Source: Isoetes taiwanensis
Taxonomy: Eukaryota > Streptophyta > Lycopodiopsida > Isoetales > Isoetaceae
DNA: 64,000 nt
NCBI GenBank assembly: GCA_021234155.1
Contig: JAJEKV010000023.1
Location: 7,108,009-7,172,008, forward strand
Direction of reading: 5' to 3'
Of this stretch, positions 11,080 to 47,100 are shown piece by piece (position 1 is the first letter of the stretch; the number at the start of each line of letters is the position of its first letter). The notes beneath the pieces are model-generated. The model had not been told where the DNA came from, ran no database searches, and saw nothing but the letters and a program-made list of their open reading frames with translations. Made by a program: the position numbers and the translations under genes.

Positions 11080-11267
<188 letters not shown>

Positions 11268-24400: not shown

Positions 24401-24483
24401 TCCAAGATCTTCGCATATACATTCCAACTACTCTAGAATGCACACGTTTTCCTGCACTTCCACTAAGGCATACTCAAGCTTAG

Positions 24484-25561: not shown

Positions 25562-25575
25562 TATGAATTCCTTTG

Positions 25576-27690
25576 GAAATGCAGCAGCTCTGTTCCAGGA
25601 TACCAGCCTGATAGCCAGCCCTCAATTATCAAGAGAACACTATAACTGCTCAAAGACGGACTGACCCAAATCAGAACACAGGCCTGGTATTTCAAGACTG
25701 CACTTTGAAGGGAGTTCCAGAGCTTCAAAGCAGGATCCCAACGTATCTAGGCAGATCTTGTAAGGAAATTTGCCCTCAGTCCTTGGCAATCTTGAAAGGT
25801 TATTTGTGTGGAACATGGGACTCTAGCAGCTGCTTGAGCACCGGGGTTACCACAGGGATACTCTACATAGAACAAAGGAAAATACAAAGATGATGAATTT
25901 GTTCTACCTATGGGCCATCGATAATACTTCGTGGCACTAAAGAATGCCTAACTACGATATGAGTAGCTTCATTTCCCAATGAGCATCAAAGAAGATGTTG
26001 AGACTTTATTAATTTGGACAACAGATGGATCACTACTAGAGTTAAGTGAATTGGTTCTGTCCTAGAACAGCTTCCTCTATAGATCTCCAAACGCAAAGCT
26101 TCCATCTGAAAGTACATTTGATTATGCCTGGGACAAAGAAATGTAAATGAAGACAATCAAATTAGTTTCCATACCTTGGCCAATTCGCACGACCTTAGGG
26201 AGGCCAGTCATAAGTATCAGAAAATGTTCAAGTTCCAGAGATAGTATATATGCCAAGTATAAATGTACATAGCATGTAATTTATGAGTGAAATTGGCCAT
26301 GATCTACCTTTTCCCTCTGTTTTCAGCAAATGAAAGGCCACACATTTTAATATCACAACTGCTCGCACACTGTCAGATATCAAAATATGATGAATTACAA
26401 GGACCAAACCTGCTTCCAATAAGAATAAGTAAGATATCAAAATTTTACCTTGATGGATGAGAATCTTGTTCCACTCAGTCAACTTTTTACTTTGCATATA
26501 CAATTTAAGCACATTATTCACTCGTCTACAAAATCAATATTTTTAAGTTTATGGAAAACTTTAGAATATCTGTTGCCAAAACTCTGCAGAGGTTAATTCA
26601 CAAGAGGCATTACACAGAGGTGGGAAAAAGCATAGACGGTGCATTGAATTCCCTTTCATGAACGATAAAAAACAAATCTAGCACTTACTGAAATTTTTGA
26701 TTAGAAATGTCTATAATTTCATGATGGCAATGCACGATGTTAAAGATGAGGTTTCTAGCATTCTACCTTGCTCGAGGGTTTGCTAGGCAGGATGTGCAGG
26801 AGCAGCTTTGAAAGCAGCTTATCTCCTGAATAAATCATCTGGAAATAAAGAGGAAAGATTAACTTATACCGTGCTTATATGCCTGAACTGGTGTCGTGGC
26901 ACAATTTCTACCTCATTTGAAATAAGACCACGTGCAAACTAAGGCTTCTTGTTACGTATGTCATGAAAGCCATATTCGCAACTTGTGCATCCATGCCTGT
27001 ATGGTGGCAAAAATGGATTCAACATATCTTTCTTACATTCTTTGGACTGCAACTTTAGTGAGCAACATTCTCCAAACAAAGTGAATGCTGTAATGCCATA
27101 GTATATGAAGGGGTGATTCTCCTATCCATAAAAGGACATCAGTTACAATTGTTCTATTTTTATCTCTTGTGCATTAACAACCATCGACCTTGCATTTCCA
27201 ATTTCCTGTGTCTAGACTAATGCAAGAAGTAACGTAAATGTCTTGATTTTGATTTTGAGTAACTAGGGCAATAAATCTCCATGCTCTAATTTCTGCACCA
27301 CCACCTAATTCAAAAGATTTCTTTGCGCAGTCCAATGATGCACTCAAGTTCTGCAGATTGCAGCAGTCAAACAAGGTGAGGATCCTCTCATTCTAGAAGT
27401 GTTGCTTCCTGCAGTTCTTCTAATGCCTTTGATTCTAATATTGTTTCGCACTATTGGCTTTTTTGTTTAAAGCTAAAGCTTTTTTGTTTGCCAGCTTCCC
27501 ATGAACTGGGACCTTCATTGGTAAATAGCTTTGCCAGTTACCTTTAACTATTTGCTGCAAGATATCTTCAAAGCCAATTCATCCTTAGTTTCAAAACTGA
27601 AATACTGAACAAATTATCCCTTGCCATCTTAGCCTCCTGTTTTATTGCATTTGGCAATACATCTCCCTGTTATGGCTGCTCGTATCATTT
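25576..27690. other. Unrecognised sequence, no clear gene
   Basis: AT-rich, with no long frame or repeat that I can identify apart from the possible exon at 27174-27374. It could be old intron or decayed transposon. Confidence 0.4.
27174..27374 (-). pseudogene. Possible exon of an NPG1/TTC7-like TPR protein
   Basis: The minus-strand peptide FDCCNLQNLSASLDCAKKSF, then ELGGGAEIRAWRFIALV and LDTGNWKC, resembles the TPR region of plant NPG1/NPGR proteins (YPP1/TTC7 family, which anchor a phosphatidylinositol 4-kinase complex). There the pattern is A.KKA..L.GGS.I.GWRLLAL followed by ALD.TGKW. The usual SAQ..F.DAE segment is changed, and no clear splice sites or neighbouring exons are seen, so a pseudo-exon is likely. 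The match is from memory of the family and needs a search. Confidence 0.3.
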
Positions 27691-27698
27691 TAATTGTT

Positions 27699-28200
27699 GC
27701 CCCCAACACATAACAACCATTAACAACCAACACATAACTACTATTGACATTAATTAACACAACCATTGGGTCCAACACATTTAAATTAAAATCCCCCTTA
27801 AACCCCCTTTGGTTTGGGTGCATATTCACACGGGGGGTGACGTAGGGCAGCGAGAGCCCTCATAATTGTATTTTGCACGTACAAAATAACACCATATAGT
27901 ATTCCGCTTGAAATCTTATAGTATTTTGCGAATCTTGTTATACAGTATAGCAAATTTTGTACTTGCATACCCCACAAACGAGGAACTTTACGTACGGTGT
28001 AGATTAAGGAATAAGGGGTGAATATGCCTATCCAACAGCTCTCGTTGCCTGGAGTCACCCCCGTGTGAATATGCACCCAAACCAAAGGGGGTTTAAGGGG
28101 GATTTTAATTTAAATGTGTTGGACCCAATGGTTGTGTTAATTAATGTCAATAGTAGTTATGTGTTGGTTGTTAATGTCAATGGTTGTTATGTGTTGGGGG
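27699..28200. mobile_element. Foldback element with ~150-bp inverted arms
   Basis: The left arm (27699-27850) and right arm (28045-28200) are near-perfect inverted copies, starting CCCCCAACACATAACAACC at the left outer edge and ending GGTTGTTATGTGTTGGGGG at the right. The right arm has an extra TTAATGTCAATGGTTG unit. About 190 bases of unique sequence lie between. No transposase, so it is non-autonomous (foldback or MITE-like). Flanking AT-rich bases give no certain target duplication. Confidence 0.75.
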
Positions 28201-28237
28201 ATTTAATTTTTATATGTCGGATGTTAATGGTTTGTGT

Positions 28238-28295
28238 TGCAAAAAAAATTTTTTGGCCCCTTCGGGGCTTTAGGGACGTCCCCGCCCCCGGTGTG
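28238..28295. other. GC-rich palindromes after the foldback
   Basis: GCCCC-TTC-GGGGC and the palindrome GGGACGTCCC lie 10 bases apart, after a run of A and T (AAAAAAAATTTTTT). A local strong structure of unknown role. Confidence 0.5.
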
Positions 28296-28379
28296 ACAAA
28301 ATATTTAGAATTCAAACCAGAAAAAAAACTAGAATCCATTTGAGGCTTTCATCACCTGTAGCTTTTGAATTTCATCACA

Positions 28380-31300
28380 ATAAAACAAATAGAACATGAG
28401 TAAAAGTTACCATAAAGATAGAGCGGATTGATCCCATTATTCTGAAAGTCATAAAGTTTGCAACACCCATACACAAACATCTTTTAACTGGAATTTAACA
28501 ACAGTATCTTTCAACTGGAATTTAACAGCAGCCTTTGGCCTCCATGGATTCTTGTGGTGAGAAACCAAAGTGGGAAACTTTTCTGCTTGTTAGCACAAGG
28601 ATCTAGAAGCCTTGGAATTTGCTTAATAACTGCCTCAAAATCTAAAAATACATGGTAATTTTTTGCAACCTTCATTCGGAATGAGCCATAAAACAATATC
28701 CAATAGCGCAATCCTGTATTAATCAGCTGGTAGGATGTGAAAGCCTACCAAACCCGGCCGAAAAATTATTGTTTTAGCATAGATAACTTAACCAAACATA
28801 TACATATCATACACTATCAAAAAGATCTCGGAGAGAGCTTTCCAACGCAATAAAAATCATCTCAAACAGAGCTCTGGATCAAAAGTTATGATAAGAAATG
28901 TGTTGCCGGCGGGGAAACTGCACTACATGCGCCCTTCAAGCCCTTCATGTGCCCATTATGCACCACACACACAAATTGAGGGCTTTTGTTGTGAGCCATT
29001 GGTTGTTGACCATTATGCACCACACACACAAAAAGAGGGCTTTTGTTGTGAGCCATTGATTGTTGACCATTATGCACCGCACGCACAAAAAAAAGGCTTT
29101 TGTTGTGAGCCATTGGTTGTTGACCATTGGAAAAAAAAGGCTAAAATCAATGGCTCAGAAATGGTGCACTCTAGATGTACGCATTAGTACATCCATTTGA
29201 ATACATCAGGAAATCATAGGAAAACCTTAGTGAAAAGCGTATAAAAACACAAAGAAAACCCCCTGTTATTATGCTACATATTTCTTGTTTTAGGTCCAAT
29301 CTATACTCTAGGGTCCTCCTTTTCTTGCTTATTACCTCTTGAAATAGTCCCACCTTTGAATTGATGCCATCTAAGAAGTTGGCCGGACTTGTTAGTCTGC
29401 TTCTTTTCATTGGGTCGGATTATTCCTTATATTATGGAGGTACTCGTCATATATATGGTGGACGGTTATCCTATTATTGAATCCTGCTTAGCGAGGTGCT
29501 CAAGCTCATGAAGAGGTTCCAATATATTGGATATCTGGCAGCAATGTATATAGTTTTAATACTCCCTACGTTTTTCTTCCAATCCTTGAAGCTTTGCTCA
29601 ATTCTTAGGTCCATCCTTTCTAAAAGAAATGACAAAATCTACTCGAAATTTTATCCCAATCCCATCATGGATGTCGTCACCCATAATTCTAAGAGTTTGA
29701 ACTATCTGATAGGTCCTCTAGCTTGCTAAAAGCTAGTGTAGTCGTTAGTCATTGGGTTAGCAAGGCGATGGTCCACAATTTTGTTGAAAAATCTGATCTC
29801 CTTGGAGTCGTTATATAATCATTCATGTGTCCTGCTTTCTTTTGTCGAACATATTCTGACTCTGCTCGTCCTTAATGTTGATGTTGACTACCTTCAATAA
29901 AGTTATTCATATTAGTGGATTTGATGATGTAGTGGGCAACATAAGGTCTCGATGTCACATCTCCAAAGGCTTGAAGGTAATGTTCTCCACTCTGTAGAAT
30001 CTTTCATGTCGACTCATTTGCCTTGGAGGTTACAAGATTTGAGGATGATTCTTCTAACTCCTGAATTGATTTTGTTGTGTTGACCTTGTCGATTCAATTC
30101 TTCGTCTTGGCGGTCACATGCTGCTATTATAAGGCTGATGACAATATTGAGTGCTTTACCACTTCTAACTGTGCAACTTCTCTTCCTGAGAAAAGTCTAT
30201 TTGCATCCATGTGCAGGGACTATAATCCACTGATCAGTTAGTAATGCTGGTATTTGGTCCCCCATGGTGCCTCTTTTTGTTGGTGTTTAACATCCAATCT
30301 CTAAGGTGGAAGATCGTCATAATCTTGAGATGGTGCTATCGAGGCTGATATAGCTGCTCTGAAATATCGAGGTTGACGAGGAAGAAGTTGGCTGTGGTCT
30401 GGCTGTATTCCTATTCCTGAACAGCCCGTCTTTGCTGGCTTGTAATTCCTCCTAATTAGTCAAAGCATCTTTGCTTGAAGTCTAAGTCTGATATTACTAT
30501 GGGCCTGTATATCTGAGATAGTTGCCCTTCCTAAGAAATATGACCGTCTCCTCGTTTGGAAACTCTTGATGTCACAAGTCGATGAAGTCATCTATTTGTT
30601 GGTGGCGTAGTTGTGACATTAATTGTCGATGTGGGGCCCTTTCTCGAGACAATATGGTATTTGAAGAATATCCTTGATTAGGAGATGTTCGTCCCTTAAT
30701 GTGATTCATGGTATAAGTGCCATGATGCCCATTGACTATTGCATAGCCCTTCTTGGCAACTCATGTGTCTATCCTTGATGTCCCAATAATCTTTTCCGTA
30801 GGTTCCTCTCTATTATTGTGTCAGAGCTTCCCTGTGCACCATCTTGACCTTTGCTTTGCTGAACTTTCCTCCGTATGGTTCCCCTCTGCTTTCATGTTGT
30901 CGAGTGGCTCCGTGTTGCGAGCTCGAGGATCTGCAATGAAGGTTCCCCTGACCTATTTGACTGCCCTAAAGTGCACAAGCCGGCTAATACTACCACAACA
31001 ATAATTATTTATTTCTACTTACTCTATAATCTCTATATTTATTCTATATTTTTATGCCTCTATCTACTCTAACTACAAATGACCCCCTTGGCATTTGGCA
31101 TCTTACTAGGCACCGAGAAGGGTACTTATTTATTGTCATGGGGTGGTATAAGGAGACTTATTTTACGGGTGTACTTGGTGTGTTGGACTAAATTACCTAG
31201 GTAGAATGAATTCCTAGATAATTATCTATGATACAAAGGCACGGCGGGACACATTTGATGGTGATGCATCTATAACGTGTGTTGGTGTGTCATACCAACG

Positions 31301-31530
31301 CGTGACAACAATTTCTAAGCCCTTGGCAACTAGCTGGATTGCTATGAAAAAAGTTTGATTATACTACCTATGTGTAGACAAGAAGACATTAGCAAGATAA
31401 GAACGACAACTAAGCTAAGATGAATGCAGATGCTGTCTCTATCTAGCTTAATGGTCTTGGTAAGGGTCTTGGCCATTAATATTATCCAATCAATATGATT
31501 AAAGCTTAAATGTAATTAAGAATTATAATT
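28380..31530. other. Unrecognised sequence with no supported gene
   Basis: Only short frames. Parts near 29800-30900 have even base composition and could be a very old retroelement read on the minus strand, but no motif supports this. The minisatellite at 28954-29124 is inside. Confidence 0.4.
28954..29124. repeat. 57-bp minisatellite, three units
   Basis: Units start with CATTATGCACC at 28954, 29011 and 29068, with a partial fourth at 29125. The unit is a multiple of three, so frames stay open on both strands; I do not take that as evidence of a gene. Confidence 0.9.
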
Positions 31531-31539
31531 TAGACATAA

Positions 31540-31804
31540 ATGATGCTCGCCCTCAATGGTCTTTGACTAGCTTGCTCATTGTATAGAATGATAAGGTTGT
31601 TAAGGGATTGATTGAGGCAGTCTGAGGAACTCGTAAGATTGTTGTCTAGGCTAGTTTGATCCCGTCCCCCTCTTTCCAATTTTGAAATGAACTCTTGTAT
31701 TTTTGTGAAAACAACATGACTATAAAGAAAGAAAGCACTAGCTATAAGCATAAATGCTAACATGTAAATGTCAAATTTTAATGTAAAAAATGTTTTGACA
31801 CTTT
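31540..31804 (-). mobile_element. Family A copy 3, left piece
   Basis: This includes CACTAGCTATAAGCATAAAT and ends GTTTTGACACTTT where the DNA transposon begins. It continues at 52458 after the insertion, as the uninterrupted copy near 57905-58020 shows. Confidence 0.75.
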
Positions 31805-32165
31805 GGGTACCTTCGCACCCGCCATTAAGTTGGGATTAAGTTAATTTTTTTAACCGCCCAATTAAACTTAAAAGAGACTCTTACGTTCACACCAAGACTA
31901 AGTTAACTTTCCGTTAAGACTAACAAAACTAGTTAAATCCTTTCGCACAAAAACAAATTAGTTTATTTTTATTTTTATTTTTTTAATTAACAGCAAAATA
32001 AAAGTGTGTTCGCACACGTCTTGGTTAAGTTAGCGCTAACTTAATGCTAACGAAAATTGCTTCACATAGATGCCTGTTAAGTTAGTCTAATATGCTAACA
32101 GCAATGCCTTCACATATTCGTCCGTTAAGTTTTTTTTTTTTTTTTTTTTTTTTAACTTAATGCAC
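31805..32165. repeat. T1 left subterminal repeats
   Basis: The motif TTCGCAC/TTCACA followed by GTTAAGTTA and its reverse TTAACTTAA recurs at least six times (31811, 31885, 31941, 32008, 32060, 32110 areas). Clustered subterminal motifs are typical transposase-binding sites. The right end has the related TTAACTTAG and CCTAACTTAACG. A run of about 23 T lies at 32129-32152. Confidence 0.65.
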
Positions 32166-32317
32166 CTCTGCCAACAAATTTGCTAGTTCATTCCTTACTC
32201 GGATAAAACCTAGGACCAATAGATGCCTATTCTGACCAAAGTTTTTCGTTGTATTTAAAATGCATTTTTTTTTTCAAACACATTCAACATTTAAATAGAA
32301 ATTATACAAGAAACCAA

Positions 32318-32480
32318 CACTACAACAGAATAGGGGGTTTTTCGTCGAATATAGCGTCAAATAAAGTGACACTATGCGTATTCTCAAAATCCCACTTACT
32401 ATCACAAAGTTGACGCTAAAAGGGCCATACTTTGGTGTCGCATGGGCGTCAATGTTTTTGTCAAGTATTGCGTCACATTT
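32318..32480 (+). mobile_element. CACTA-type terminus (solo end)
   Basis: CACTACAACAGAATAGGGGG at 32318 has the classic CACTA start, followed by repeated GCGTCA/TGACGC motifs (near 32352, 32412, 32448, 32470) like the subterminal repeats of CACTA elements. I could not find a matching opposite end, so this is a fragment or a chance match. Confidence 0.45.
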
Positions 32481-33927
32481 AAATAATGCAAAAATGACAT
32501 AATAAGAACATTTGTGGCAATTGCATGACATGGTTTGTGTCAGGCTTATAACCAAGTTATTCAATAAATGCATCACATTTTGTATCATATTAGTCTTGAC
32601 TATGCGACTAAATTCTTACACTAATTTGGCATCCTCATCTTTTATAGGCTGACATGCGTTGTATCACACAAGAACTGGCGCCATACTCACCTGGGCCAAT
32701 TATAAAGAAAATAGCATTGCGTCTGCATCAGGTCTTGAAAGAACTTTCTAGACAAGACAATATCACCAGCATCGACTCTCTATAGATTAGCACTAGTTAT
32801 TCGTTTGGCGAACAGAATGGACAGGCACGTTTGAAACATAGGTTAGAACCCATTCTTTTGATTAAAGAACCCACAAATGCAGATAAAATAACCCATAACT
32901 TTTGATTATCACATTACACTTATCATGGCTTTAGAATCAAATTACATCTCATGATGCAGAGCAAAGCTTGCAGACAGTCAGATTACTTCTCTTTCATGTC
33001 CATTGTCAAAAATGTGTGAATCAGCCTAAATCAAAGGTATCCCATACTGATTACATTTTCAAATGCATAAAGGAAACGAAACAGACAGACCATGTTTACC
33101 ATCAGTATAACAGTAGCAAAACAGGGAAACAAGATCGATGTAAATCGAGATAGAAGAAAAAGAAGGGAATGTTGCTTCACAGATCCCTTGCCATTGATAT
33201 GTCTGCACAGCCTGCCAAAACCAAGCCACTGTCGCCGCCCTTAACCACTGGCCCTTGCAGGTTATTTGGATCTAGCCACTACTCACCGTCCTATCACAAC
33301 AAGGTTATTTTCTATAACTCCTCGAATATTCCTTTCTTGGAGAATGTTTGGATGATTACGGGCATAATATCCCGAATACACCATAATCGCCAAGAGATGC
33401 TTTTGCATGCCTCTGTTCATGTGTTCTTCCCAATGGCAGCAGAGGTTTTTGGTTGGGGCCTGCAGCAGCGGTTTTTGGTTGGGGTTTGACTACCTCAAAA
33501 AAATTTTGTATTAAAATGGGTCATGATGTAGAATAAAACAGTTGATCAGAACCTCTGTTTTCGTGATTGGGCAAATCACAGGAGCTTAATAAGGCTTAAA
33601 TCATGTGTTTTAATTGCTGGGAGTTTCAGATATGTGTAGTGGTGAGATTTCGAACTAGCCCATTTGCAACCTCGGCAATAAATTGGTAGGAATTTCCCTG
33701 TTATATTGAAGCTATGAAAGAGATCCTGCCTGCTTGCCTTACCTGTAAGTAGGAGCAAAGCTGAGAGATCTTAAAATAGGGATGCTTTGTAAAAGGTCTT
33801 CCTTATCTCCCTGTAACCAAACTGGGATGAAAAAGCCTGAATCTATCTACTAATATCGCAGCTTGAGATCTACTTCGGCGAAAAAAACCTGAGTTCGCCC
33901 AACCTGCTCGGGCCTGTGGTTAAGGGA

Positions 33928-34024
33928 GGTTAAACCTCCTCTCTCGGGGATCATGGGAAATAACCCTCTCGGCCTTCGGCCTCGAGGGTTATTTCCCATA
34001 ATCCCCTCAAGAGGAGGGTTAACC
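33928..34024. other. 97-base near-perfect palindrome
   Basis: Arms of about 45 bases run from GGTTAAACCTCC at the left to GGAGGGTTAACC at the right. The centre is GGCC-TTC-GGCC (33971-33981) and the long middle stem includes ATGGGAAATAACCCTC. A few unpaired bases only. It lies about 140 bases from the LTR element. Confidence 0.8.
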
Positions 34025-34161
34025 TACTCATCGCGCCCCATACCTAAAAGAATAAAAAAAGAAAACAGGGAAGGCGGGAAAGAAAAGGGCATTATATTTC
34101 ACAAAAGGGCAAAATATAAGGTTCTTCGCATATGGTTCATGCCTCTTAAGGGTAAGACAAA

Positions 34162-34166
34162 GGAGA
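34162..34166. other. D2 target-site duplication, left
   Basis: GGAGA directly before TGTGACG; the same five bases follow the right LTR at 47096-47100. Confidence 0.85.
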
Positions 34167-35783
34167 TGTGACGCTCCCCGTACAATATACGGTAACCACC
34201 GTACACTCCACGGAAAATCCCCCAACCAGTGTCGTCTACTGGATGGGCCCTCCATCTATCCCGTTCTAGGGATGGCTAGAATGGTAAGGGACACGGAGGT
34301 GTCTCGTAAATCCGTCCCCTATGGACTCCTAATAACAGCGGAAGCATATAACTAATGTCAGTACTAGCAACTAACAACAACAATAATAAGTCTACCTCGA
34401 AGGGTAGCTCAATCCATCCATCCATAAAATCGTCAGAAGGATCAATACACCATAAAACAATAAAGCTTCTACCCAAGCTCTGACTCGTGGGGAAAAGTAC
34501 ACTGACGGCTAGGTCTCAAGATAGATACAGACGGAAGTGTAAACAATGGCGTGGCTGGCTATAAGACAATGGCTAAGGGTTGACCACTCCATCCGCCCCT
34601 CCTGTGCATACTTTGCAGATGGGCTAAAACGAGATATAGCGTGACTGTAGCCGCCGGATACGCAATCTCTTGGATTCACCCTAAGAGACTACTCCAGGTT
34701 TCATCTCCCTGGTCCGATGAGGCAAGGTCGGGTTACATCTCCCCTTCCCGGAAATCAGTGATTCGATGGGCGACTAGAGGATCGTGGCGACACACGTCCG
34801 TTCACGTCTTTAACCCCCCCAAAACAAGAACCAGGCTGGCACCTGCAGCTCTTCAGGATCAGGGCGGCACCATTGATCCAGGGGGTGACGAACCCATGCC
34901 CGGCCCACACGAAGTGACCGACCATAGGCCTAGTGCGCCCCAAGTCCCCAGTAGCCGCGCTCAGCAGGGACTATTCCTCCATCTTGTCATTGATCCCGTT
35001 ATATGGTGCTCAGTCATCCCATAACTCCCTTAGTCCGGTGGGCTCTATGCACAGGCCGCATATAATAGGTATTATGGGTCTATCTAGAAGCATCATACAT
35101 AAGGCTGCTAGGTCTCTACCCCCCTTCCCAATACATGAGGAGCATAACAAGAGATCAACCATATCATATCCATAACATATGAACAATAAGAATAAGATCT
35201 AACCTAATCACATGAATCTAACTAGGGAGTTAGGGTTCATTGATTCGGTTCATTAGTTGAAATAGTGATTCTAGGAAGGCTCTACTAGAATACATGACTC
35301 TACGACATCTCTATAGCTGAAACTGCTTCAAAATACCTGCTCCTGACGCGTTTCCTCCTGATCCTGGGGTCCCCATCGATTCTTCGATGTTTGAGATTAC
35401 TGCTACTGAATCCAACACGTCCACACTACTTGGGTCGCTAAACCGTGCTATGTTGCAGCTTCTGGATCTTGATTCTGAACTCCGGTTGTGACAATAGCCT
35501 CAAGAGTGGGAGGAGCAAAAGTGTCTTCTGAGTTAGGGTTAGGTATTCATAGGCAAGTTAGGGTTAGGGTTGACACCTTGTCCAATGGGATGCGAACACG
35601 TGGCCAGTTACCCCAATCAGGTAGTGCCACGTGGATATATCCTTTCCTAAGGTTAATCAAGTTACATTTTAATGTGACTTGAACTTACGTAATTGTCATA
35701 CAAATCTAAGTCATACTGGATTTGTATGGTGACGTGGCCCAAAATATACGTATACATACCGTATATTTTAGAGGAACGTCACA
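34167..35783 (-). repeat. D2 3' LTR
   Basis: It starts TGTGACGCTCC and ends GGAACGTCACA, an 11-base terminal inverted repeat with one mismatch. It contains the small hairpin CCGTA-CAATA-TACGG near its left end and short TTAGGG runs near 35535-35575. It differs most from the other LTR at 34610-34960. Confidence 0.95.
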
Positions 35784-35797
35784 TTCTCCCCCCCTTA
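35784..35797 (-). promoter_or_regulatory. D2 polypurine tract
   Basis: On the minus strand AAGGGGGGGGAGAA lies immediately before the 3' LTR. This is the plus-strand DNA primer site for RNase H-resistant RNA. Confidence 0.85.
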
Positions 35798-36179
35798 GAA
35801 TAATGTTGTCCGCAGCATTAAGTAATATATAACTTATATAATATTGCATAACTTATATAATATTGCATTTGTATATATATAAAAAGAAACGATAACTTCT
35901 GATATATATGTTTCTACAACAGCTTGGAAGAATATCCTTGCAAGCTTATACATAAGTATTTTCAAGTTTATTTATAACAAAACATTATGAATTGGACACA
36001 TCAATTCATAATTTAAGTTTAGGAGTTTAAGCTATCTACAAAATTCTTAACTCCTAACTTCTCGTAATGTGCTCCCTCGTATTTGCTTGAATTCACTTCC
36101 CTGCAATGAGTAGCACATTACGTTAGTTTAATTATAAATTGTGGTTTTAAGGGGACCACCCCCCTAATTACTCACTATA

Positions 36180-36475
36180 CTTTTTTTCTAACTGCATACG
36201 ATCATGGCCATACGGTTTAAGCTAAGAATCATTTAAGATGATTCTATCATTGCCCATGATGGTAGCTACCTTGTGCATGATCTCCCCCCGTTGATCCTGC
36301 ACCCCACTGTGCTTCATGGTTTCCTGGTTTAAGCTTAGGAACATGCAATTGTATCCTTCATTGCCCATGATCACTTTTATTTTACATGACCCCCCTATGG
36401 TCATGTACACTTGCAGTGCGTAATGGCATAGAGAACGTCTTATGGATGATCTCATCATCGCCAACACTCTCTTCT
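36180..36475 (-). repeat. D2 3' non-coding tandem repeats
   Basis: About three diverged ~95-base units with TATCATTGCCCATGAT, CATGACC...GGTCATG and TGGCATAGAGAAC. Same family as in D1, so kept in the 3' untranslated part of this lineage. Confidence 0.6.
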
Positions 36476-36547
36476 AGACTTATCTAAAACACGATAATCT
36501 ATACTTTGTAATTATCATAGCTAACTACAAAGTATTCACTCACTTAT

Positions 36548-37456
36548 TTAATCTATCACAGATTTTAACAATGGCAGACCTATATATTCGATGTTGGCCA
36601 TTTCGGAGATGACTTGGCCGTCGAATTGGTTCATAAATTTTGGGTATTGTCTTTCTAAATCTTGTTTCAATACCCAAGTTGCGTCTTCTACTGGCACGTG
36701 CTTCCATTTGACTAAGTACTGAAGAAATTCCGATCTTCGTGTTTTCTTGAGTGCTTTGTCAAGGATGATTTCAGGAACAATTTCAACATGCTCCTCTGTC
36801 ATTTCCAATAATGTTGGAGTCTCTAAAATCTCTTCCGGATTTGGGGTATGCCTCTTAAGCAGACTAACGTGGAAGACTTTATGAACCTTTAGATGAGCGA
36901 GTAAGTCTAATCTGTAGGATTGATTTCCAACTCTCTCAATAATTTTAAATGGTCCTGCCCATCTTGGTGCCAATTTCTTGCAATTTTCAATTCTGAGCTT
37001 GGCTTGCTTAACTTTGATCTTTAGCCATACGCTATCTCCAATTTGAAATTCTCTCAACGTTTCTATGCTTATCTTTAAGCTCTTTTGGCCGACTTCTAGC
37101 TTTGCTATCAAATATTCCCGAACTTCTTGCACTAGCTCTTGCATATCTTCTAGCATTTGTTGAGAGACTTCAACTTTTGACACCGGATTATGCCACGTGT
37201 CAGGTGTGAGACATTGGTATCCATAATTAATCATGAACGGGGACATCTGTGATGATTCTTGCTTGGTACTATTATATGCAAATTCTACCAAGTATATGCA
37301 GTCCTCCCATTTCGTCTGTTTGTTCCACACGTAATGTCTCAACATATCTTCCAAAATTCTGTTTGTTCTTTCTGTTTGACCATCTGTTTGAGGGTGATAA
37401 GCCGTACTCATACAAAGCTTTGTTAGATGGTTCCAAAGAAGTCCTTCAAAATGCAC
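36548..37456 (-). pseudogene. D2 integrase C-terminal half and chromodomain
   Basis: It starts just after the second catalytic Asp and shows STAYHPQTDGQTERTNR with the catalytic Glu, then the SH3-like part RWAGPFKIIERVGNQSYRL and KVHKVFHVSLLKRH. The chromodomain is FLQYLVKWKHVPVEDATW, about residues 247-264. The chromodomain would tether the integration complex to modified chromatin. The frame differs from the upstream integrase part by a shift between 37456 and 37542, where SDRDPKF is readable in another phase. Open for 302 codons and probably recent. Confidence 0.9.
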
Positions 37457-37541
37457 TTATAAATTTCGGATCTCTATCCGATATTATTCCTCTAGGCATG
37501 CCATGAAGTCTGAAAATTTCTTTAGTGAAGAGCAAGGGTAT

Positions 37542-38456
37542 CTAGGGTAGGTAATCATTTGTTCTACATGGCAAGAAATGTGCCATATTTGAAAGTTTAT
37601 CGACCACTACCATGAGTGCGTCATGCCCCCTTGCTGTTCTTGGGAGGCCCGTGATGAAATCCATACTCACTATTTCCCACTTGGCATCTGGAATTGCTAA
37701 TGGCTCTAGGGCTCCAGGAATGCGAAGTTGTTCGGCCTTGGTTTGTTGACATAATTGATATTGCCGAATGTAATTGGCAATGTCCTTCTTCATACCTGGC
37801 CAGAAGTAACTACTTCTTATTTTAAAGTAAGTTTTCATAAAGCCTGCATGACCTGCAATCGGGCTATTGTGAGTATCATTGAGAATCAACTTTCTCACTC
37901 CTGATGCTTCTGGAACACACAACTTGTCCTTATGGTAAAGAAGCTTGCCTTCCTTCTTATAATTCTTAAAAAGTTCCCTTTCTTTGTTTGTTCTTGCATC
38001 CTTGCAAAGACTTGCCCAAACCTGTTGGAACTCCACACTAGAGGGTATTGCCTCCTCAATTTTCCTGCCGAATTCACTTGATAAAGTTAATATGGCATTG
38101 CAGTGTGTTCTTGTAACTATTGGCCTGCGAGAGAGAGCGTCAGCAACTACATTCAATTTGCCGGGCTTATAGACTATATCAAAGTCATATTCTTCTAAAA
38201 ACTCCATCCACCTTCTTTGTCTCAAATTTAGAAGTGGTTGTGTGAATATGTATTGCAAACTCTGATGATCTGTGTCTAATTGGAACTTCTTTCCTAACAA
38301 ATAATGTCTCCAAATGCGTAGTGCCCTCACTACTGCCAATAGTTCTTGATCATGAGTCGGATATCGTTGTTCTGCTTCATTCATTTTCTTTGAATCGTAT
38401 GCAATTACCCTTCCTTCCTGCATAAGTACCCTTTTTGTGGCAATCATGCTTTGCAT
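37542..38456 (-). pseudogene. D2 RNase H and integrase N-terminal half
   Basis: 304 open codons. RNase H is shown by AYDSKKMNEAEQRYPTHDQE, LLAVVRALRIWRHYL and DTDHQSLQYI, and the tether by FDIVYKPGKLNVVADALSRR. The integrase zinc part is H...H...CQLCQQTKA (read QYQLCQQTKAEQ; the first Cys is replaced by Tyr in this copy), then WEIVSMDFITGLPRTARG with the first catalytic Asp. RNase H degrades the RNA of the hybrid. Confidence 0.88.
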
Positions 38457-38495
38457 CGGTTGCTACAAGTTTATCTTTTTCGAGTCGGGGTAAGG

Positions 38496-39439
38496 TTAGA
38501 ACTGAGCTGTTGTCAAGGCTTCTTTGAGCTTATCAAAAAAAACTTGTACTTCTTGCATCAATTGTCCATCCAGTTCTTTACCTTCGTTTCTTTGTGAGGT
38601 CTGCATCAAAGGAGCTGCCCACTTAGCGAAGTCCTTTACAAATTTTACGTAGTATCCCCGCAAGACCCGGAAACTTCTTACTTGAGGAACGTTTCTTGGT
38701 GCCGGCCAATCTATGATGGCTTCTATCTTTCTTTGGATCCGTTCTTTATACAATATGGCCCAAGTAATCAACTTTGGGGGTGGCAAAGTGACACTTGGAA
38801 AATTTGGCAAATAGCTTATGCCTTCTTAGTTTACGTAAGACTTTTCTTAGATGGTGATCATGTTCTTGATTGACTTGCTATAAATGAGGATGTCGTCAAG
38901 AACACTATTAAAAAATCATCCAAGAACTCTCTGAAAATATCATTCATCAACCTCATGAGCGTTCTTGGTGCATTTGATAGGCCAAAGGGCATAACGTAAA
39001 TTCATAATGACCATAGCGTGTTAAAAAGCGTTTTATGAACATCTTCTTCTTTTATTCTTATTTGGTGGTATCCTGACCTTAAGTCAATTTTGGAGAATAT
39101 CTTTGCCCCTTGAAGTTGATCCATTAGATCATCTGCTCTTGGTAATGCGTATTTATTCTTTACCGTTTGTTTGTTGAGTTGTCGGTAATCTATACACATT
39201 CTGAGACTTCCATCTTTCTTCTTCACGAAGAGAATAGGTGCCCCAAAGGGTGATACACTTGGTCTTATAAAACCAATTTCCAACAACTCCTTCAACTGAT
39301 TCTTGAGTTCTCCAAGTTCCGGTGTGCTCATCCTATAGGGAGCCTTGCTAGTAGGCTTAGCATCTGGTGCTAGAGTAACCTCACATTCCACACCTCTATA
39401 GGGTGGTAGCTCTCGGATATCATCCGGAAAAAACATCAT
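38496..39439 (-). pseudogene. D2 reverse transcriptase, frameshifted
   Basis: It opens at 39439 as [19 protein letters not shown] and includes [52 protein letters not shown] and [15 protein letters not shown] with the first catalytic Asp. It then breaks at 39002. The active-site motif is readable as VLDDILIYS near 38870-38900, where most relatives have Y/F-x-DD. The thumb and connection (YYVKFVKDFAKWAAPL) lie at 38496-38810. At least three indels, several beside homopolymers. Confidence 0.88.
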
Positions 39440-41390
39440 AAAATTCTTTTATGATTTTAGCAATAGGCTTAGGCAATTTTTCTATGCTTTCCTCCTGTGT
39501 TATATTCTTACTATCAGGTTGAATTGCCTTTAGCCTAAGGATATATTCAATCTCCTTCTTTACACTGTATTTATTCAACTGGCTTAAAGTTATACACTGC
39601 ATTACTGAAGGAATTTCCTTACCTCTGACCACTATTCGTTTGTCATCTGGTGCGGTGATTGCTATTTCTTTATTGTCGCAGTCAATGATTGCCTTAGCTG
39701 GTTTGAGGAATTCCATTCCGACTATCAAGTCATATTTGCCAATATCCATTACCTCAGCTCCCATGGTGAACTTAATTCCGGTCAATCCGACGTCAAAGTT
39801 AACTCTTCTTCCCTTTGTATGTCGAATTGCCCCATTTGCCATGCTGACTGGTCTGGGTTTAGATTTTAGGGTCTTTGACTTTAATAATGCTGCCAGTCTA
39901 GGAGATGCAAAATTGTGTGAACTACCTGTGTCTATTAGAATTACATACGGTTTATCATCTATTATAGCATCAGCTGAGATGACTGTGGACTGACTTGCAA
40001 CATTATCAGTCTCAATAGCTGCACAAATCTTACACTCACCATCTATGTAATCTTGGGCTTCCTCCTGATCATCATCTTCATCTTGTTCAGTAGGTGATTC
40101 CCATCCGTCTAACTCTGCCAAAGCTGCCTGCATAACGAAAGGACATGTATGTGTTCTGTGGCCCGGCTGGAAACATCTGAAACAGAGTTGTTTCTTGATG
40201 CATTCATCCCTCTTTTCCTTTGGAATACTGTCTAGGAAGCTTTTGATTGACCTGCCAGATGAAGACCCTTGAGCTGCCTGATTTCTGTATGGTCCCTTCC
40301 TGTCATTCTTCCCTTGCAACTGTTGGTTAGCAGGTTGATTTCCCTGCTGCCTTGGAGTGTATGGAGCTATTGACTTGTCCTTTGAATAGTTGCTCTGCTT
40401 TGGCCCAGGTGTTTGTGGAGTTTCTTCCAAACTTAAGGCTTTATCTTCAGCTTCCCCAACTGTTTTTGGGTTTATGGCCCGCACAAGTCTCTTGATGTTG
40501 GGGTTTAGTCCCTCAATGTATCCATCTACGGCTTGCCTTTCTGTTATTGTTGGCACATTTAAGCGTAGCCTCATGAACTCTTCTGTATATTTGGCTACGG
40601 TTAAGTTTCCTTGATCCAACCTATAAAATTGTTGAATCTGCCTGCTTGTATGTGATCGAGGTACATAGTGCTTGCGAAATGCTTTACTGAAAGTTTTGAA
40701 CTTACAATTGTTTCTTTTCAGTCTATTAGATTTGGCATATCCCTTCCACCATATTCTGGCTGGACTATTCAAATTTGATGTTGCTACCTTTCCTATGTCC
40801 TTATCCTTCATCCCATAGGAGTTGCCAAATTCTTCCATCTCATCAAGCCATGCTTCTGCTTCCATGCCGGATCTGTCCTTTCCAGAGAACTGCCCCAGTT
40901 TCCTTGTTTTCCAGACATTGCTCATAGCAATATCTATTTTCTTCTGGTAATCTTCCGCTCGATGTACTGTTCCTCCTCTTCGATGTCTATTCCTATCATT
41001 GGAACTATCAGACTCAGTGTCGGAGTTACTGTCACTAGCTGTACCTGATGTGGTGTTGTCTGCACTTGAGCTTGAAGGAGTTACAGTTCTCCTATGTCTT
41101 TTCTTTCTCTTTTTCTCCCTTGGAACTTCCGGTGGTGGATTCTGCCCTAGTTGAGCTTGTTGATCAATTCCTGGGACTTGTGGTGGTAGAGGTGCACACT
41201 CCTGGTTTTGCATCAGTGGTGTTGCCCAGTTGACTATCCGTGTCATTTGATTTCTCATGCGCACTAATCGTCGGTTTATAGCTTCGGGTGACATGTCATC
41301 CTCGACTGCTTCATCATTGTCATGGCCGAATAAGTTTCTTGGCAACCAGTTTCGTTGTCGGTTTTGAAATTCTTGTTCCTGAGGTGTCAA
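39420..41390 (-). CDS. D2 gag and aspartic protease
   Basis: 656 codons without interruption. A charged, low-complexity N-terminal part (Ser/Asp/Arg-rich near residues 100-145) precedes the gag domain (about 170-330: [68 protein letters not shown]). The zinc knuckle [14 protein letters not shown] is at about 400-414, and protease [19 protein letters not shown] at about 485-503. Gag forms the particle and binds RNA; protease matures it. The frame ends at a T6 run (39428-39433) just before PDDIREL of reverse transcriptase; one T fewer would fuse gag to pol. The start ATG at 41390 fits the usual length. Confidence 0.93.
39426..39440 (-). other. Gag-pol frame junction at a homopolymer
   Basis: Minus strand GATGTTTTTTCCGGATGAT: with six T the frame stops (DVFSG), with five it reads DVFPDD as in most relatives. 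Either a programmed shift, an old mutation or a sequencing indel. Confidence 0.6.
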
Positions 41391-41630
41391 GCCGAATGTT
41401 CCTGCTGCAAGATTTTATCAAATACATTGTTTATGCAGTATTCCTTGGTGCTATGATATTGTTATCTTGCTTCAAATAAACCATAAAAGATTTTAAAATA
41501 GTCAATGATTTATATGATCATAAGATAATTTTTCTATTCAAAACATATGGGTACATAAAATTATGATATTATCCTTAAAAGGTAAATACTTGACATAATT
41601 TTAAGAAAGCTAAACATGAAAATTGATAGT

Positions 41631-43166
41631 TTATCTCTTGGAGCTGGATCCTGTGTTGGATTTGAAGAAATCCTTGATATGCTTGAGTCTAAGGCCTTTG
41701 CCCGCATTTCGTAGGATATTTCGTGTCGACCCTCCTTCTAGGGCTTGCTGCATCTGTGGTGCTGGAAGTTCCGGTGCCGTAGCTGCTACAACTGTCAGTA
41801 GTCCATCTCGCATGTGGCCCCGGGCGAAATCTAGACTATAGAGAGCTACCGATCTTTTAATGAGAATGACGTGATCGATATTTTCTCTTATTTTGGCATG
41901 CTGCCCGAAACCTGTGAGTGCCATGAGCAATGCCACTGCTTCTTCCCCTCTTGGGCTAAATTCTTTGTGAAAGACTAACATTTGGCCTTGACATAGGGTT
42001 GGGAGATAGTATCTCAAGGCCTTGCCCTTTTGATGCCCCTTTGGTGCTTTTCCTTTGCCTGTTCCTTTTCTTGCTGCTGCAGATCCCACTATTTCAAGTG
42101 CTAGGAGATCATCATGGTCTCTCATCATTGTTGCCGCGTTTTCAAGATTGATGCTGGTTCTCTCCCTGACACTTGATGATCTCCTGGGCTGACTCACACT
42201 AAGTCCTCTGCCTGTTTTATACAAAGTGCTTTGAATTGCTTGGAATTCCTCTTCCGATATAATGGGTTCATTTTGCTTATAGAATTCCTTTATATATTGG
42301 TAGGCTTCAATATCGGTCATTGTTTCACCCGCATAAGAATGGTGCTCCGCTACTTCACGAGGAATCTCCTGATAAGAATAATCAATAAGGTCATGCGGCT
42401 GTCCTTCGGAGATGATGCCTAGGAGTTCATCAATCCTTAGGCCTTGTTCCAAGCAGTAAGGTAGGTGCAATATGTCATTTGCGAGGAGGTATTCTTCTCC
42501 TTCGACAATTATTGGAGATAAGGCAGTGATACCTATTGGTGGCGGGTTTGATTTTAGCACCCGTTCTTCGTGCATAGTAATTTGCCTTTCCCATTTTTCA
42601 GCGAATCTCGCTTCTTCTTCTTCATCTAGCTCACCAGTTTCTTCATAATCTTCCTGTAGCTTGAGTATTTCATGTGATGTGCCTTGGGTCACGTACTCAG
42701 TCGTGTCGAGTTCGAGGATGTCATCTTGATTTACCCTTGTGTTCAAGGGTGCAAGGTCTAGGGGCTGAACTGAAGGTTCCCCTACCTGATTGATGGCGTT
42801 AAATAGCATAAAAATTGCAAGTGCTGCTTGCGCTGAAACATGCCTATGCTTTTGTACTGTGCATCTTATATAATCTGGCATGTTGCTTGTTCTTTCCCAT
42901 ATTTGTTTCTTGATTTTAGATGTGTTGCCCAATACTCTGGAGAGTACTTCCAATGAAACCCACTTTCCTGCTCTGGGTGGAATGTCAACTTCTGATGGCA
43001 ATATCTGTTGATCATACTGGATCATTATCTCTGTGTAGAATGGTGTTCTTGTTAGTGTTGCATATAGATCAAATGTATGATTGAACACCTCAAAGGCCTG
43101 CTGTATGGGTACTTCTCCCTTGTGGTCGGAGCTATTATACCATTCGATGAAGTTGGTAGGCGCCAT
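41631..43166 (-). CDS. ORF-X, extra protein upstream of gag, unknown function
   Basis: 511-512 codons from MAPTNFIEWYNSSDHKG; an in-frame ATG at 43313 would add 49 residues with a hydrophobic, aromatic stretch, but the inner start looks more natural. The N-terminal 140 residues (KWVSLEVLSRVLGN, YIRCTVQKHRHVSAQAALAI, FMLFNAINQ) faintly recall the 'putative plant transposon protein' domain found in extra ORFs of other plant LTR elements; this is tentative. The middle is acidic (EETGELDEEEEARFAEKWER), then basic Gly/Lys (RKGTGKGKAPKGHQKGKAL) before a C-terminal globular part with ALRYYLPTLCQGQMLVFH. No transmembrane segment in the core, so not an obvious envelope. It lies on the sense strand between the H3-like gene and gag and is uninterrupted, which argues for function. 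Confidence 0.8.
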   Translation of the reverse strand: MAPTNFIEWYNSSDHKGEVPIQQAFEVFNHTFDLYATLTRTPFYTEIMIQYDQQILPSEVDIPPRAGKWVSLEVLSRVLGNTSKIKKQIWERTSNMPDYIRCTVQKHRHVSAQAALAIFMLFNAINQVGEPSVQPLDLAPLNTRVNQDDILELDTTEYVTQGTSHEILKLQEDYEETGELDEEEEARFAEKWERQITMHEERVLKSNPPPIGITALSPIIVEGEEYLLANDILHLPYCLEQGLRIDELLGIISEGQPHDLIDYSYQEIPREVAEHHSYAGETMTDIEAYQYIKEFYKQNEPIISEEEFQAIQSTLYKTGRGLSVSQPRRSSSVRERTSINLENAATMMRDHDDLLALEIVGSAAARKGTGKGKAPKGHQKGKALRYYLPTLCQGQMLVFHKEFSPRGEEAVALLMALTGFGQHAKIRENIDHVILIKRSVALYSLDFARGHMRDGLLTVVAATAPELPAPQMQQALEGGSTRNILRNAGKGLRLKHIKDFFKSNTGSSSKR

Positions 43167-43466
43167 TAGAGCAAGGTAGGTGTAAAAGTCGGTTTGATAA
43201 AATAGCAAAAGGCCTGAAAATCGCCTAAAGGGGTAGGAGCTATCTTTGAGAGGAAAAAAATAGAAAATGACCTTCCTTTTATAGAGGTTATGGTTTCTAG
43301 TTTTTCGTGCCAATCATAATTGTTTAGAAAAATCTAAGTTTTATGAGCTAGAATTTACCAATCTAAGAGATATGAAATGCTAACGTAGTTAGAACAAGGC
43401 GGAAAACATACTAATTTATTTTATTTTATTTCAGCTAAATTGGACATCTTTTTGATCAAATCGGGC

Positions 43467-43540
43467 GAATTCGGTTACACCGCGCGAAAGGGGTTTCCGA
43501 GCCCCTCGGAAGGCTGTTTGGCGCGGTGTGACCGAATTTG
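43467..43540. other. Structured repeat copy 1 between H3-like gene and ORF-X
   Basis: An 18-bp stem AATTCGGTTACACCGCGC (43468-43485) pairs with 43521-43538, one wobble, around an inner stem TTCCGA/TCGGAA with a GCCCC loop. Its twin lies 200 bases away. Confidence 0.85.
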
Positions 43541-43670
43541 GGTCAACTTTATTTCTATAATGGCGATTTTGATAATAAAACATACTAACTTGCGTTTATT
43601 TTCTAAATTTAGTCAACCTAGCATGTTTATTTATAAAAATCTAACTTATTTGACTCCGAATTTACCCTAT

Positions 43671-43737
43671 TTCGGTTACACCGCGCGAAAGGGGTTTCCG
43701 AGCCCCTCAGAAGGCTGTTTGGCGCGGTGTGACCGAA
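43671..43737. other. Structured repeat copy 2
   Basis: TTCGGTTACACCGCGC (43671-43686) pairs with 43722-43737. Copy 1 and copy 2 differ by one base in the 67-base core (TCGGAA versus TCAGAA), a change that weakens the inner stem. Confidence 0.85.
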
Positions 43738-43862
43738 TTTGGACTTTTCGGCGCCGTTGACTTTATCAACTCCGATAATTATTAATTTTTTTAAAAGTAG
43801 TACAACATCTATATAACATCTTGGAGTCAAAATTACAAAATTTCTAGACAATTATATACTAT

Positions 43863-44936
43863 CTAAAACTTTGCCCCTCTAATTCTTCTTGCCAAATGAA
43901 TGTCTTTAGGCATTACGGTAACCCTCTTGGCATGTATAGCACAGAGGTTACCTTCTTCGAATAATTGAACTAGCTCCGCCTCCGAAGCTTCTTGCAGAGC
44001 ACGAACCATCAATGGTGTGACCCGATAATCTGTCCTAAATTCCTGCAACACCTCTCTAAGCAACCGCTCGAAGGGTGCCTTGCGTATAAGGAGATTTGTG
44101 CACTGTTGAAAGTGCCGAATTTCCCTAAACGCACGGGAGTGCTTCGAGTTGGGGCCATGGTGTTTCCTCTTGGGCTCTCTGGGGTGTGGTGGGGGTGGCT
44201 TCGGCTGATTTTTCTTGGGTCTGCCCCCTTTTATCGTCCTTGGAAAATTCTGTTTGCAATACCATTTGTTGTATAGGTACCATCGGCGGAAATAAATTTT
44301 ATATGCCGCCTTCTTTCTTTCAAATTGGGCGTCGTGACTCAATTTGAATGCCCTTTCGCCCGGCTTTTGCTTCTTTTTACTCTTCTAAGCGTTGGGCCAT
44401 GTTGGATAGGGTGGAGGGGCATTGGGGTCGGATGGTTCGGCCTCATCCCCTGATCTTTCGACCACGGCGTCTTCCTCCTCTTCTTCTTCAGCATTCTCCT
44501 CTTCTTCTTCTGTTGGTTCTTCATCCCTAAGGGGTTCTTCAATAGTAATTGTCCCCCTAGGCCTATCCTGCCTCCTCTTCGTCCTCCTCTCTTGCCTTCT
44601 CACCTCCTCCTCTCTTTCCTTTCTCTTTCTCTCCCTCCTTTCTGAGGCCCATTCGGATACTTTTTCCTTGCCTTTCTTGCTTTTGGGTCTCATACTTTTT
44701 GGCAGCTGCTTCCCACCTGTTGTGGGTCTGGTGACTGCCTCCTTTTCGGTCCGTTCCTCATCAACCTCCTGTTCTTCGCTTGATTCTTCCTCTTCTTCCT
44801 CAATTGTTTCTTCTTGTTCTTCCTCAACCACTTCCTCTTCTTGAGGGGGTGGCTGGGCGGCTGCTGCTTGAGCGGCGAAGTGAATTTGTTCTGCATATAG
44901 GCCACAAACTCTGGCAGTGGATTTGGTTTTGGCCAT
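43863..44936 (-). pseudogene. Histone H3-like protein encoded by retrotransposon D2 (one in-frame TAG)
   Basis: One frame of 358 codons, interrupted only by TAG at 44387-44385. It starts MAKTKSTARVCGLYAEQ, matching the H3 tail ARTKQTAR: Lys4 and Arg8 positions are kept, Lys9 is Val. About 165 residues of Glu-rich then Arg/Lys-rich linker follow. After the TAG come [13 protein letters not shown], a basic Pro-rich stretch ([16 protein letters not shown]) and a full histone fold: [76 protein letters not shown]. The alignment to canonical H3 is ungapped from the alpha-N helix to the end, about two-thirds identical by eye. Cys110, His113 and Asp123 of the H3-H3 interface are kept; Lys56 is Gln. 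RHFQ..TNLLI recalls plant CENH3, but loop 1 is of canonical length. The frame after the TAG has no early ATG (the open stretch starts at a TTG), so the fold was made as part of one protein. Sense to gag, no intron: a captured retrocopy is likely. Confidence 0.85.
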
Positions 44937-45475
44937 GTTTTTTATCTCAGAAAACGGACGTTGATTGGCTATAGAACTGCTTATCACTAAGAAAGGAACT
45001 TAAGAGACTTTTTAGGGTTCTTTTAATTAATATGAAGTTTAAAAAGGTAGTTTATGGGGAATCGTGGAGGAATATTCCTTTTTTTTCTCATTACGGTGGA
45101 ATTTATTGAGCCCCCTTTCATTAATATCCCTCTCCCAATTTAAATTTCGCATTTTCTTGGTTGGAAATTATGAACCTTCACCATTTTTCACTGGAACCTC
45201 AGAATTTAAAAATTCTTTGACCCTTTTTATGTGAGATTTGGTGTAGATGCATAATTTTCACCCCAATCTTACTAGAATGTTTATTTTACTTTATTTTTCA
45301 TCCCCTTTTTAACTAGAATTTAATTTACTCTAGGACCCTCCTATTGGAAAAAAAATTTCTCCCCACTTTACGAGGTTCTAGGTTGGAATTTTTCATTCCA
45401 TTCCTTTTTCTAGGTCAATTAGCCTATTAAAACAGGGATATGGTCAGTGCTAGTTCTTGGTCAACCAAGAGCATG
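44937..45475 (-). other. D2 5' leader
   Basis: About 540 bases between the primer site and the first gene. AT-rich, no long frame. Repeated TTACTAGAAT/AACTAGAATTTA words near 45270-45320. Confidence 0.6.
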
Positions 45476-45487
45476 GCTCTGATACCA
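45476..45487 (-). promoter_or_regulatory. D2 primer-binding site (tRNA-iMet)
   Basis: On the minus strand TGGTATCAGAGC, complementary to the 3' end of plant initiator-Met tRNA, begins one base after the 5' LTR. This fixes the direction of the element. Confidence 0.93.
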
Positions 45488-45488
45488 T

Positions 45489-47095
45489 TGTGACGCTCCC
45501 CGTACAATATACGGTAACCACCGTACACTCCACGGAAAATCCCCCAACCAGTGTCGTCTACTGGATGGGCCCTCCATCTATCCCGTTCTAGGGATGGCTA
45601 GAACGGTAAGGGACACGGAGGTGTCTCGTAAATCCATCCCCTATGGACTCCTAATAACAGCGGAAGCATATAACTAATGTCAGTACTAGCAACTAACAAC
45701 AACAATAATAAGTCTACCTCGAAGGGTAGCTCAATCCATCCATCCATAGAATCGTCAGAAGGATCAATACACCATAAAACAATAAAGCTTCTACCCAAGC
45801 TCTGACTCGTGGGGGAAAGTACACTGACGGCTAGGTCTCAAGATAGATACAGACGGAAGTGTAAACAATGGCAGGGCTGGCTATAAGACAATGGCTAAGG
45901 GTTGACCACTCCATCCGCCCCTCCTGTGCATTATGGGCTAAAACGAGATATAAGCGTGGATCAGAGCAGCCCGGATACGCAATCTCTTGGATTCACCCTA
46001 AGAGACTACTCGGGTTTCATCTCCACAGTCCGATGAGGGCAAGGTCGGGTTACATCTCCCCTTCCCGAAAATCAGTGATTCGATGGGTGACTAGAGGATC
46101 GTGGCGACACACGTCCGTTCACGTCTTTAACCCCCCCAAAACAAGAACCCGGCCTAGGCACTGCGGCTCTTCGGGATCGGGCGGCACCATTGATCCGGGG
46201 TGTGAACCCATGCCCGCCCCCCACGAAGTGACCCACCATAGGCACGGGTGCACCCCAAGTCCCAATGGCCCTTCGGCGGGGACTATTCCTCCATCTTGTC
46301 ACTGATCCCGTTATATGGTGCTCAGTCATCCCATAACTCCCTTAGTCCGGTGGGCTCTATGCACAGGCCGCATATAATAGGTATTATGGGTCTATCTAGA
46401 AGCATCATACATAAGGCTGCTAGGTCTCTACCCCCCTTCCCAATACATGAGGAGCATAACAAGAGATCAACCATATCATATCCATAACATATGAACAATA
46501 AGAATAAGATCTAATCTAATCACATGAATCTAACTAGGGAGTTAGGGTTCATTGATTCGGTTCATTAGTTGAAATAGTGATTCTAGGAAGGCTCTACTAG
46601 AATACATGACTCTACGACATCTCTATAGCTGAAACTGCTTCAAAATACCTGCTCTTGACGCGTTTCCTCCTGATCCTGGGGTCTCCATCGATTCTTCGAT
46701 GTTTGAGATTACTGCTACTGAATCCAACACGTCCACGCTGCTTGAGTCGCTAAACCGTGCTATGTTGCAGCTTCTGGATCTTGATTCTGAACTCCGGTTG
46801 TGACAATAGCCTCAAGAGTGGGAGGAGCAAAAGTGTCTTCTGAGTTAGGGTTAGGTATTCATAGGCAAGTTAGGGTTAGGGTTGACACCTTGTCCAATGG
46901 GATGCGAACACGTGGCCAGTTACCCCAATCAGGTAGTGCCACGTGGATATATCCTTTCCTAAGGTTAATCAAGTTACATTTTAATGTGACTTGAACTTAC
47001 GTAATTGTCATACAAATCTAAGTCATACTGGATTTGTATGGTGACGTGGCCCAAAATATACGTATACATACTGTATATTTTAGGGGAACGTCACA
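45489..47095 (-). repeat. D2 5' LTR
   Basis: A direct copy of 34167-35783 with the same TGTGACG...CGTCACA ends. As 5' LTR it should hold the promoter, reading leftwards; I do not see a certain TATA box. Confidence 0.95.
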
Positions 47096-47100
47096 GGAGA
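47096..47100. other. D2 target-site duplication, right
   Basis: GGAGA, as at 34162-34166. Confidence 0.85.

Follow-up and report, generated by a model that had tools for sequence, protein, structure and literature searches.

Plants silence retrotransposons in part through marks on histone H3; can a plant retrotransposon carry an H3 of its own? The question is raised by a 64,000-nucleotide (nt) stretch of the Isoetes taiwanensis genome (GenBank assembly GCA_021234155.1, contig JAJEKV010000023.1, positions 7,108,009 to 7,172,008 of the forward strand; "the window" below), in which an earlier note, made by a model from the sequence alone, had reported an H3-like protein encoded by a long terminal repeat (LTR) retrotransposon that we call D2. 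We find that the minus strand of D2 contains, within the borders of the element, a complete H3-type histone fold whose changed residues are distributed as expected of a constrained H3, and that the gene to which it belongs is interrupted by a stop codon in this copy. Our proposal as a whole, that a chromodomain Ty3/gypsy lineage of a plant captured a host H3 and kept it under constraint as H3 cargo, seems to us about evenly poised between being right and being wrong.

What kind of element is D2, and does the H3 sequence lie inside it? Its borders on the minus strand are as follows: a 5' LTR (TGTGACG...CGTCACA, 45489-47095) and a 3' LTR (34167-35783) are 95.75% identical by self-BLAST and are flanked by the target-site duplication GGAGA (left copy 34162-34166, right copy 47096-47100); the primer-binding site TGGTATCAGAGCC (45475-45487), which we take to be of the initiator-tRNA-Met type, and a polypurine tract adjoining the 3' LTR (35784-35797) are both on the same strand. 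The order of features from the 5' LTR is leader, H3 gene, a spacer with two hairpins, an uncharacterised open reading frame (ORF-X), gag-protease, pol and 3' LTR. The gag and protease region is one open frame (39420-41414; Pfam Ty3_capsid, Retrotrans_gag and RVP_2), and pol (36548-39448; from Pfam, PDB and frame analysis) specifies reverse transcriptase (RT), RNase H, integrase, SH3 and a chromodomain, with several breaks. The Pfam order protease, RT, RNase H and integrase with a C-terminal chromodomain, together with the 5-nt duplication and the other border features, is that of a Ty3/gypsy chromovirus; Pfam rve gave no match in D2 pol, and the integrase piece matches the Ty3 integrase in PDB (7.1e-20). 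The RT and integrase frames are broken by stops and frame changes between 39001-38463 and 37541-37457, so pol is not intact in this copy. The earlier note had placed the histone in sense orientation between 5' LTR and gag, inside the borders and not in host flank, and this is borne out by the minus-strand gene order and by the features at both ends; its description of the element as "otherwise complete" holds for the LTRs, duplication, primer site and polypurine tract and does not hold for RT and integrase. A hAT transposon with a captured H3 was also considered as the identity of D2 and was rejected, as D2 has LTRs, a 5-nt duplication and gag-pol, whereas hAT elements have terminal inverted repeats, an 8-nt duplication and a hAT transposase. 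An Rfam scan of 36000-47100 returned no match at E 0.5.

Is the encoded sequence an H3? The C-terminal piece of the gene (translated from 44384-43866) matches Pfam Histone PF00125 at 1.9e-31 and H3 chains in PDB at 6.1e-34, and its last 88 residues (43866-44129, minus strand) align from alpha-N to the C-terminus with plant H3.1 and H3.3, 58 of the 88 being the same (66% identity, 34% changed) with no gap, a match far beyond chance. The complete, ungapped fold that had been claimed for this strand is thus present, with the loop-1 length of H3. Of 32 key residues that were checked 23 are as in H3, and the retained residues include C110, H113, R116, D123, L126 and R129 of the H3-H3 interface, as the earlier note had it, as well as K115, R63, K64, R69, R72 and R83; these residues have roles in H3-H3 and DNA contact. 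The nine changed key residues are K56Q, L65A, K79R, F84V, D106E and four in the chaperone region at 86-90 (the chaperone site of H3 is described in section 9 of PMC9145170). A structure model of the D2 H3 is weak (predicted local distance difference test score, pLDDT, 52.5) and has the helices in place within this low confidence; in a Foldseek search it is matched best by entries that are for the most part nucleosomes, to which, with template modelling (TM) scores of ~0.2, we give no weight. A protein search with the H3 half was hardly informative in its ranking, since 7981 of 8000 scored candidates pass; among the 120 matches listed, 18 of 19 sequences examined contain whole or partial H3 repeats.

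The fold is preceded by a long tail. The first ATG of the frame, at 44936, begins the sequence MAKTKSTAR, in which seven of nine residues are those of H3, an agreement reached by none of 200,000 shuffled starts; the H3-type tip that had been noted is therefore real, with K4 present and K9 replaced by V. The N-terminal piece (44388-44936, minus strand, 183 codons) continues with two acidic tracts (net -13 per 20 residues each) and basic stretches, and is followed by an in-frame TAG (44387-44385) and then by the C-terminal piece (43863-44384, 173 codons plus stop), which contains a basic linker and the fold. In total 269 residues precede the fold, compared with 47 in H3. The "one reading frame" from tail to fold that the earlier note described is thus divided in two, and in the second piece no ATG lies in frame ahead of the fold. 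Measured stop to stop the two open pieces are 204 and 173 amino acids; in 2000 shuffles the longest open frame had a 95th percentile of 131, which both pieces exceed, although the largest value was 239. Element-like codon bias peaks in one common frame through the tail (0.21), the linker (0.07) and, weakly, the fold (0.03), and the scores of leader and spacer are negative in all six frames. Because the element's codon bias is best in a common frame, we read tail, linker and fold as one gene of ~357 codons that is broken in this copy. Since the TAG splits the H3 frame and pol is broken, the present copy of D2 is dead, and the view that D2 specifies a functional H3 is not supported for it.

The divergence of the fold can be compared with that expected of a constrained H3 and with the age of the insertion. 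The changes fall at 27 of 53 variable sites and 3 of 35 invariant sites, as defined by a comparison panel that includes other H3s as well as CENH3s (p 2.3e-5), and further panels gave 28 of 66 versus 2 of 22 (p 0.003), 26 of 56 versus 4 of 32 (p 0.0009) and 19 of 32 versus 11 of 56 (p 0.0002). The LTR alignment (1623 columns) has 57 substitutions and 22 gap columns, and a patch of 400 columns (approximately 34567-34967 versus 45889-46289) holds 40 of the substitutions and all of the gap columns; uniform placement reproduced such a patch in 0 of 20,000 trials, and it looks as if this copy has undergone sequence exchange or recombination with another family member. The 17 substitutions in the other 1223 columns amount to 1.4%, and the range given for substitutions between the LTRs is 1.4-3.6%. 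Because 34% of the H3 fold is changed and the LTRs are 1.4% apart outside the patch, most of the H3 divergence is older than this insertion, and it could have arisen either after capture, within the element lineage, or before it, in the host.

A number of observations weigh against a captured and constrained H3 gene, in addition to the internal TAG and the broken RT and integrase frames. The DNA-contacting stretch ahead of alpha-N (RYRPGTVAL in H3) is lost in the PDB alignment, the H3 likeness of the tail past residue nine is marginal (142 and 35 of 5000 shuffles reach its two scores), and ten upstream ATGs in the leader argue against easy translation. The neutral simulation of the H3 sequence (absence of a stop, P 0.18; conservative nature of the changes, P 0.07; both together, 0.012) speaks by itself only weakly against decay, and the divergence may have taken place in the host before capture. 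A protein search with the linker scored 8 candidates, none at E 0.1, and the H3-carrying D2 is known from a single copy. An older, decayed relative of D2 lies at ~23707-31335 on the minus strand and has kept integrase-chromodomain and ORF-X remnants (the latter at 31221-30374); gag gave no match at E below 0.2, nor did RT at E below 2. A search of 31000-34160 for an H3 remnant was negative, although in a detection control of 60 trials each a test remnant was recovered at E 0.001 in 59 trials at 25% substitution, 55 at 30% and 48 at 33%. The missing remnant argues mildly against H3 and ORF-X being of equal age in the lineage, provided that the 5' region has not been lost or decayed further.

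Could the H3 sequence then be a passenger? This copy, or a few copies, may have transduced the transcript of a host H3 variant that was already divergent, and it would then be neutral and have no role in the element. The TAG inside the frame, the older relative with no H3 detected and the single known copy all favor such an event, and we regard it as a genuine though doubtful possibility. It sits less easily with the element's own coding bias in the H3 gene (weak in the fold) and with the long charged tail, for which the protein search found no relative, and recent uptake of an ordinary H3 clashes with 34% changed residues against LTR substitutions of 1.4-3.6%. A second way to obtain a passenger is nested insertion, in which another element, for example a long interspersed nuclear element (LINE), inserted a retrocopied host H3 variant into a finished D2 of whose design it is not part. 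LINE-like RT frames are present in the window, and the H3 segment is free of introns. It has short imperfect repeats on either side (15 nt, 93%, at 43618 and 45272; 17 nt, 82%, at 43341 and 45306), and a run of seven A lies 70 nt past the H3 stop, the repeats and the run both being possible by chance. We consider this improbable: no longer poly(A) run occurs within 300 nt past the stop, the flanking repeats, which are not exact, are separated from the H3 frame by hundreds of bases, and the H3 is in the sense orientation of D2.

A captured centromeric-type H3 (CENH3) could direct D2 to centromeres, and five of the 30 changes in the fold (K53H, Y54F, E59N, L65A and Q85T) do coincide with plant CENH3s; two plant CENH3 sequences were used in this comparison and in the tree. 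Identity is 52% to human CENP-A and 50-53% to the two plant CENH3s compared with 66% to H3, the CENH3-type loop 1 insertion is absent from the D2 fold in the alignment with CENH3s, and the motifs RIRG and MPKD match H3. A tree of 11 short sequences is mostly unresolved, though in it the D2 H3 does not join the two plant CENH3s, which pair with each other at 92%. Because of the higher H3 identity and the lack of a loop-1 insertion, the fold is on sequence grounds H3-type and not CENH3-type, with five CENH3-like residues, and a captured CENH3 is very improbable. Finally, a host H3 gene that happens to lie between two LTRs, for which the single known copy could be cited, is refuted by the D2 borders, namely matching 5-nt duplications outside the LTRs, primer site, polypurine tract and same-orientation gag-pol, and we give it next to no chance.

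If the lineage did capture and keep an H3, how might this have come about, and what would the protein do? We infer the following course: a host H3 coding sequence was taken up by a plant chromodomain Ty3/gypsy lineage, most simply when an H3 mRNA, either spliced or intronless, became copied into the element as this was being reverse-transcribed, and was set in sense orientation between leader and gag. Copied along with the element, and so presumably carried by other copies, it would have drifted to 66% fold identity and acquired a charged tail that exceeds the H3 tail by ~220 residues, while the constraint on the H3 persisted. The product of an intact copy, if expressed, might reach the nucleus, bind host H4 as its partner and become part of nucleosomes, as is inferred for the H3s that occur singly in DNA viruses. 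With V for K9, K56Q and a changed chaperone site, element DNA or complementary DNA (cDNA) could be marked as hard-to-silence chromatin; the missing K9 and acetyl-like Q56 are suggestive of such an open state and the acidic tracts of a built-in chaperone. By eye, from the translation, the D2 chromodomain seems to lack two of the three cage aromatics, so it may not need to read K9 methylation. Plant group II chromodomains lack the first and usually also the third of these (PMC3350952). The more specific idea that this H3 variant, with its chaperone-like acidic tail tracts, no K9 and K56Q, builds nucleosomes resistant to H3K9 methylation on cDNA or new insertions and thereby evades silencing seems unlikely to us.

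Has H3 capture been seen elsewhere? The earlier note took host histone capture by a chromodomain retroelement not to be an established class. For mobile elements in general, and for DNA viruses, H3 capture is published; for LTR retrotransposons no histone was recognised in the open-access literature, covered mostly at the level of titles and opening lines of abstracts. The word "histone" occurs zero times in a gene-capture review (PMC13317346) and in a paper on Troyka elements (PMC12440569). According to the portions of these reports considered here, hAT DNA transposons with a captured H3 (H3L) occur in Pyrenophora tritici-repentis (PMC3538342) and in Pseudocercospora fijiensis and relatives in Pseudocercospora, Cercospora and Sphaerulina (PMC6710886). 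Like D2 these are mobile elements with an H3 captured as a transcript within their borders, and in P. tritici-repentis H3L also adjoins an ORF with no known function (PMC3538342); unlike D2 they are class II elements of fungi with inverted repeats and tens to hundreds of reported copies, whereas D2 is a class I chromodomain LTR element with a single known copy and 269 residues ahead of the fold in place of the 47 in H3. Single H3 histones are also described, in section 9 of PMC9145170, for DNA viruses (xenomavirus, Dishui Lake phycodnavirus and viral metagenome-assembled genomes). They too are lone H3s with a kept fold (73-87% compared with 66% in D2), three of six have extended tails and host histones are thought to be used; they differ in that these are DNA viruses with no LTR and no reverse transcription, and no interrupted frame is described in that section. 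So far, then, H3 capture has been described, in the parts of these sources used here, for fungal DNA transposons and DNA viruses, and a retrotransposon case, if true, would extend it to reverse-transcribing elements. In a retrotransposon with its own H3 the histone itself would be the point at which host silencing is met, and nature would have provided an experiment to show which residues of H3 are required for silencing. D2 opens a direct test of these ideas through copy number, selection and chromatin immunoprecipitation.

ORF-X, which lies between the hairpin spacer and gag, is an open frame of 511 codons (41634-43166, minus strand). No Pfam family scored above its cut-off, a protein search gave none at E 0.001 among 7998 candidates scored, and its structure model is useless (pLDDT 34). 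It fits the kind of additional ORF known from the plant LTR retrotransposons Athila, Bagy2, Grande, RIRE2 and Retand, which like D2 have an extra ORF beside gag-pol; in contrast to D2, most of those ORFs follow pol and precede the 3' LTR, they are often antisense, and the part of PMC7264820 drawn on here describes no histone among them. The spacer between H3 and ORF-X contains two 72-nt hairpins (43671-43742 and 43470-43541) that are 99% identical and 201 nt apart. Their folding z-scores are -4.5 and -5.9 on the minus strand and -6.7 and -8.4 on the plus strand, respectively, and they are more stable on the plus strand (-51.1 and -44.9 kcal/mol) than on the sense strand (-35.8 and -33.6 kcal/mol). 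In scans of IMG/VR, which may omit records near the window's own genome, a hairpin pattern had 0 matches, and six peptide patterns each for ORF-X and the H3 half were matched at 2 and 3 stretches, respectively, none of which encodes a relative.

Other repeats in the window include a second gypsy element (17640-22378) with integrase-chromodomain frames, in which gag-like stretches at 17829-19033 and 20862-19690 are in inverted order (92%). A fold-back element (27700-28200), with arms of ~160 nt that are 93% identical, lies within the older D2 relative, and a 57-nt tandem repeat in 3.1 copies is present at 28953-29128. Three long TC arrays (2719-2898, 6424-6624 and 11073-11262) stand beside LINE-like reverse transcriptase frames.
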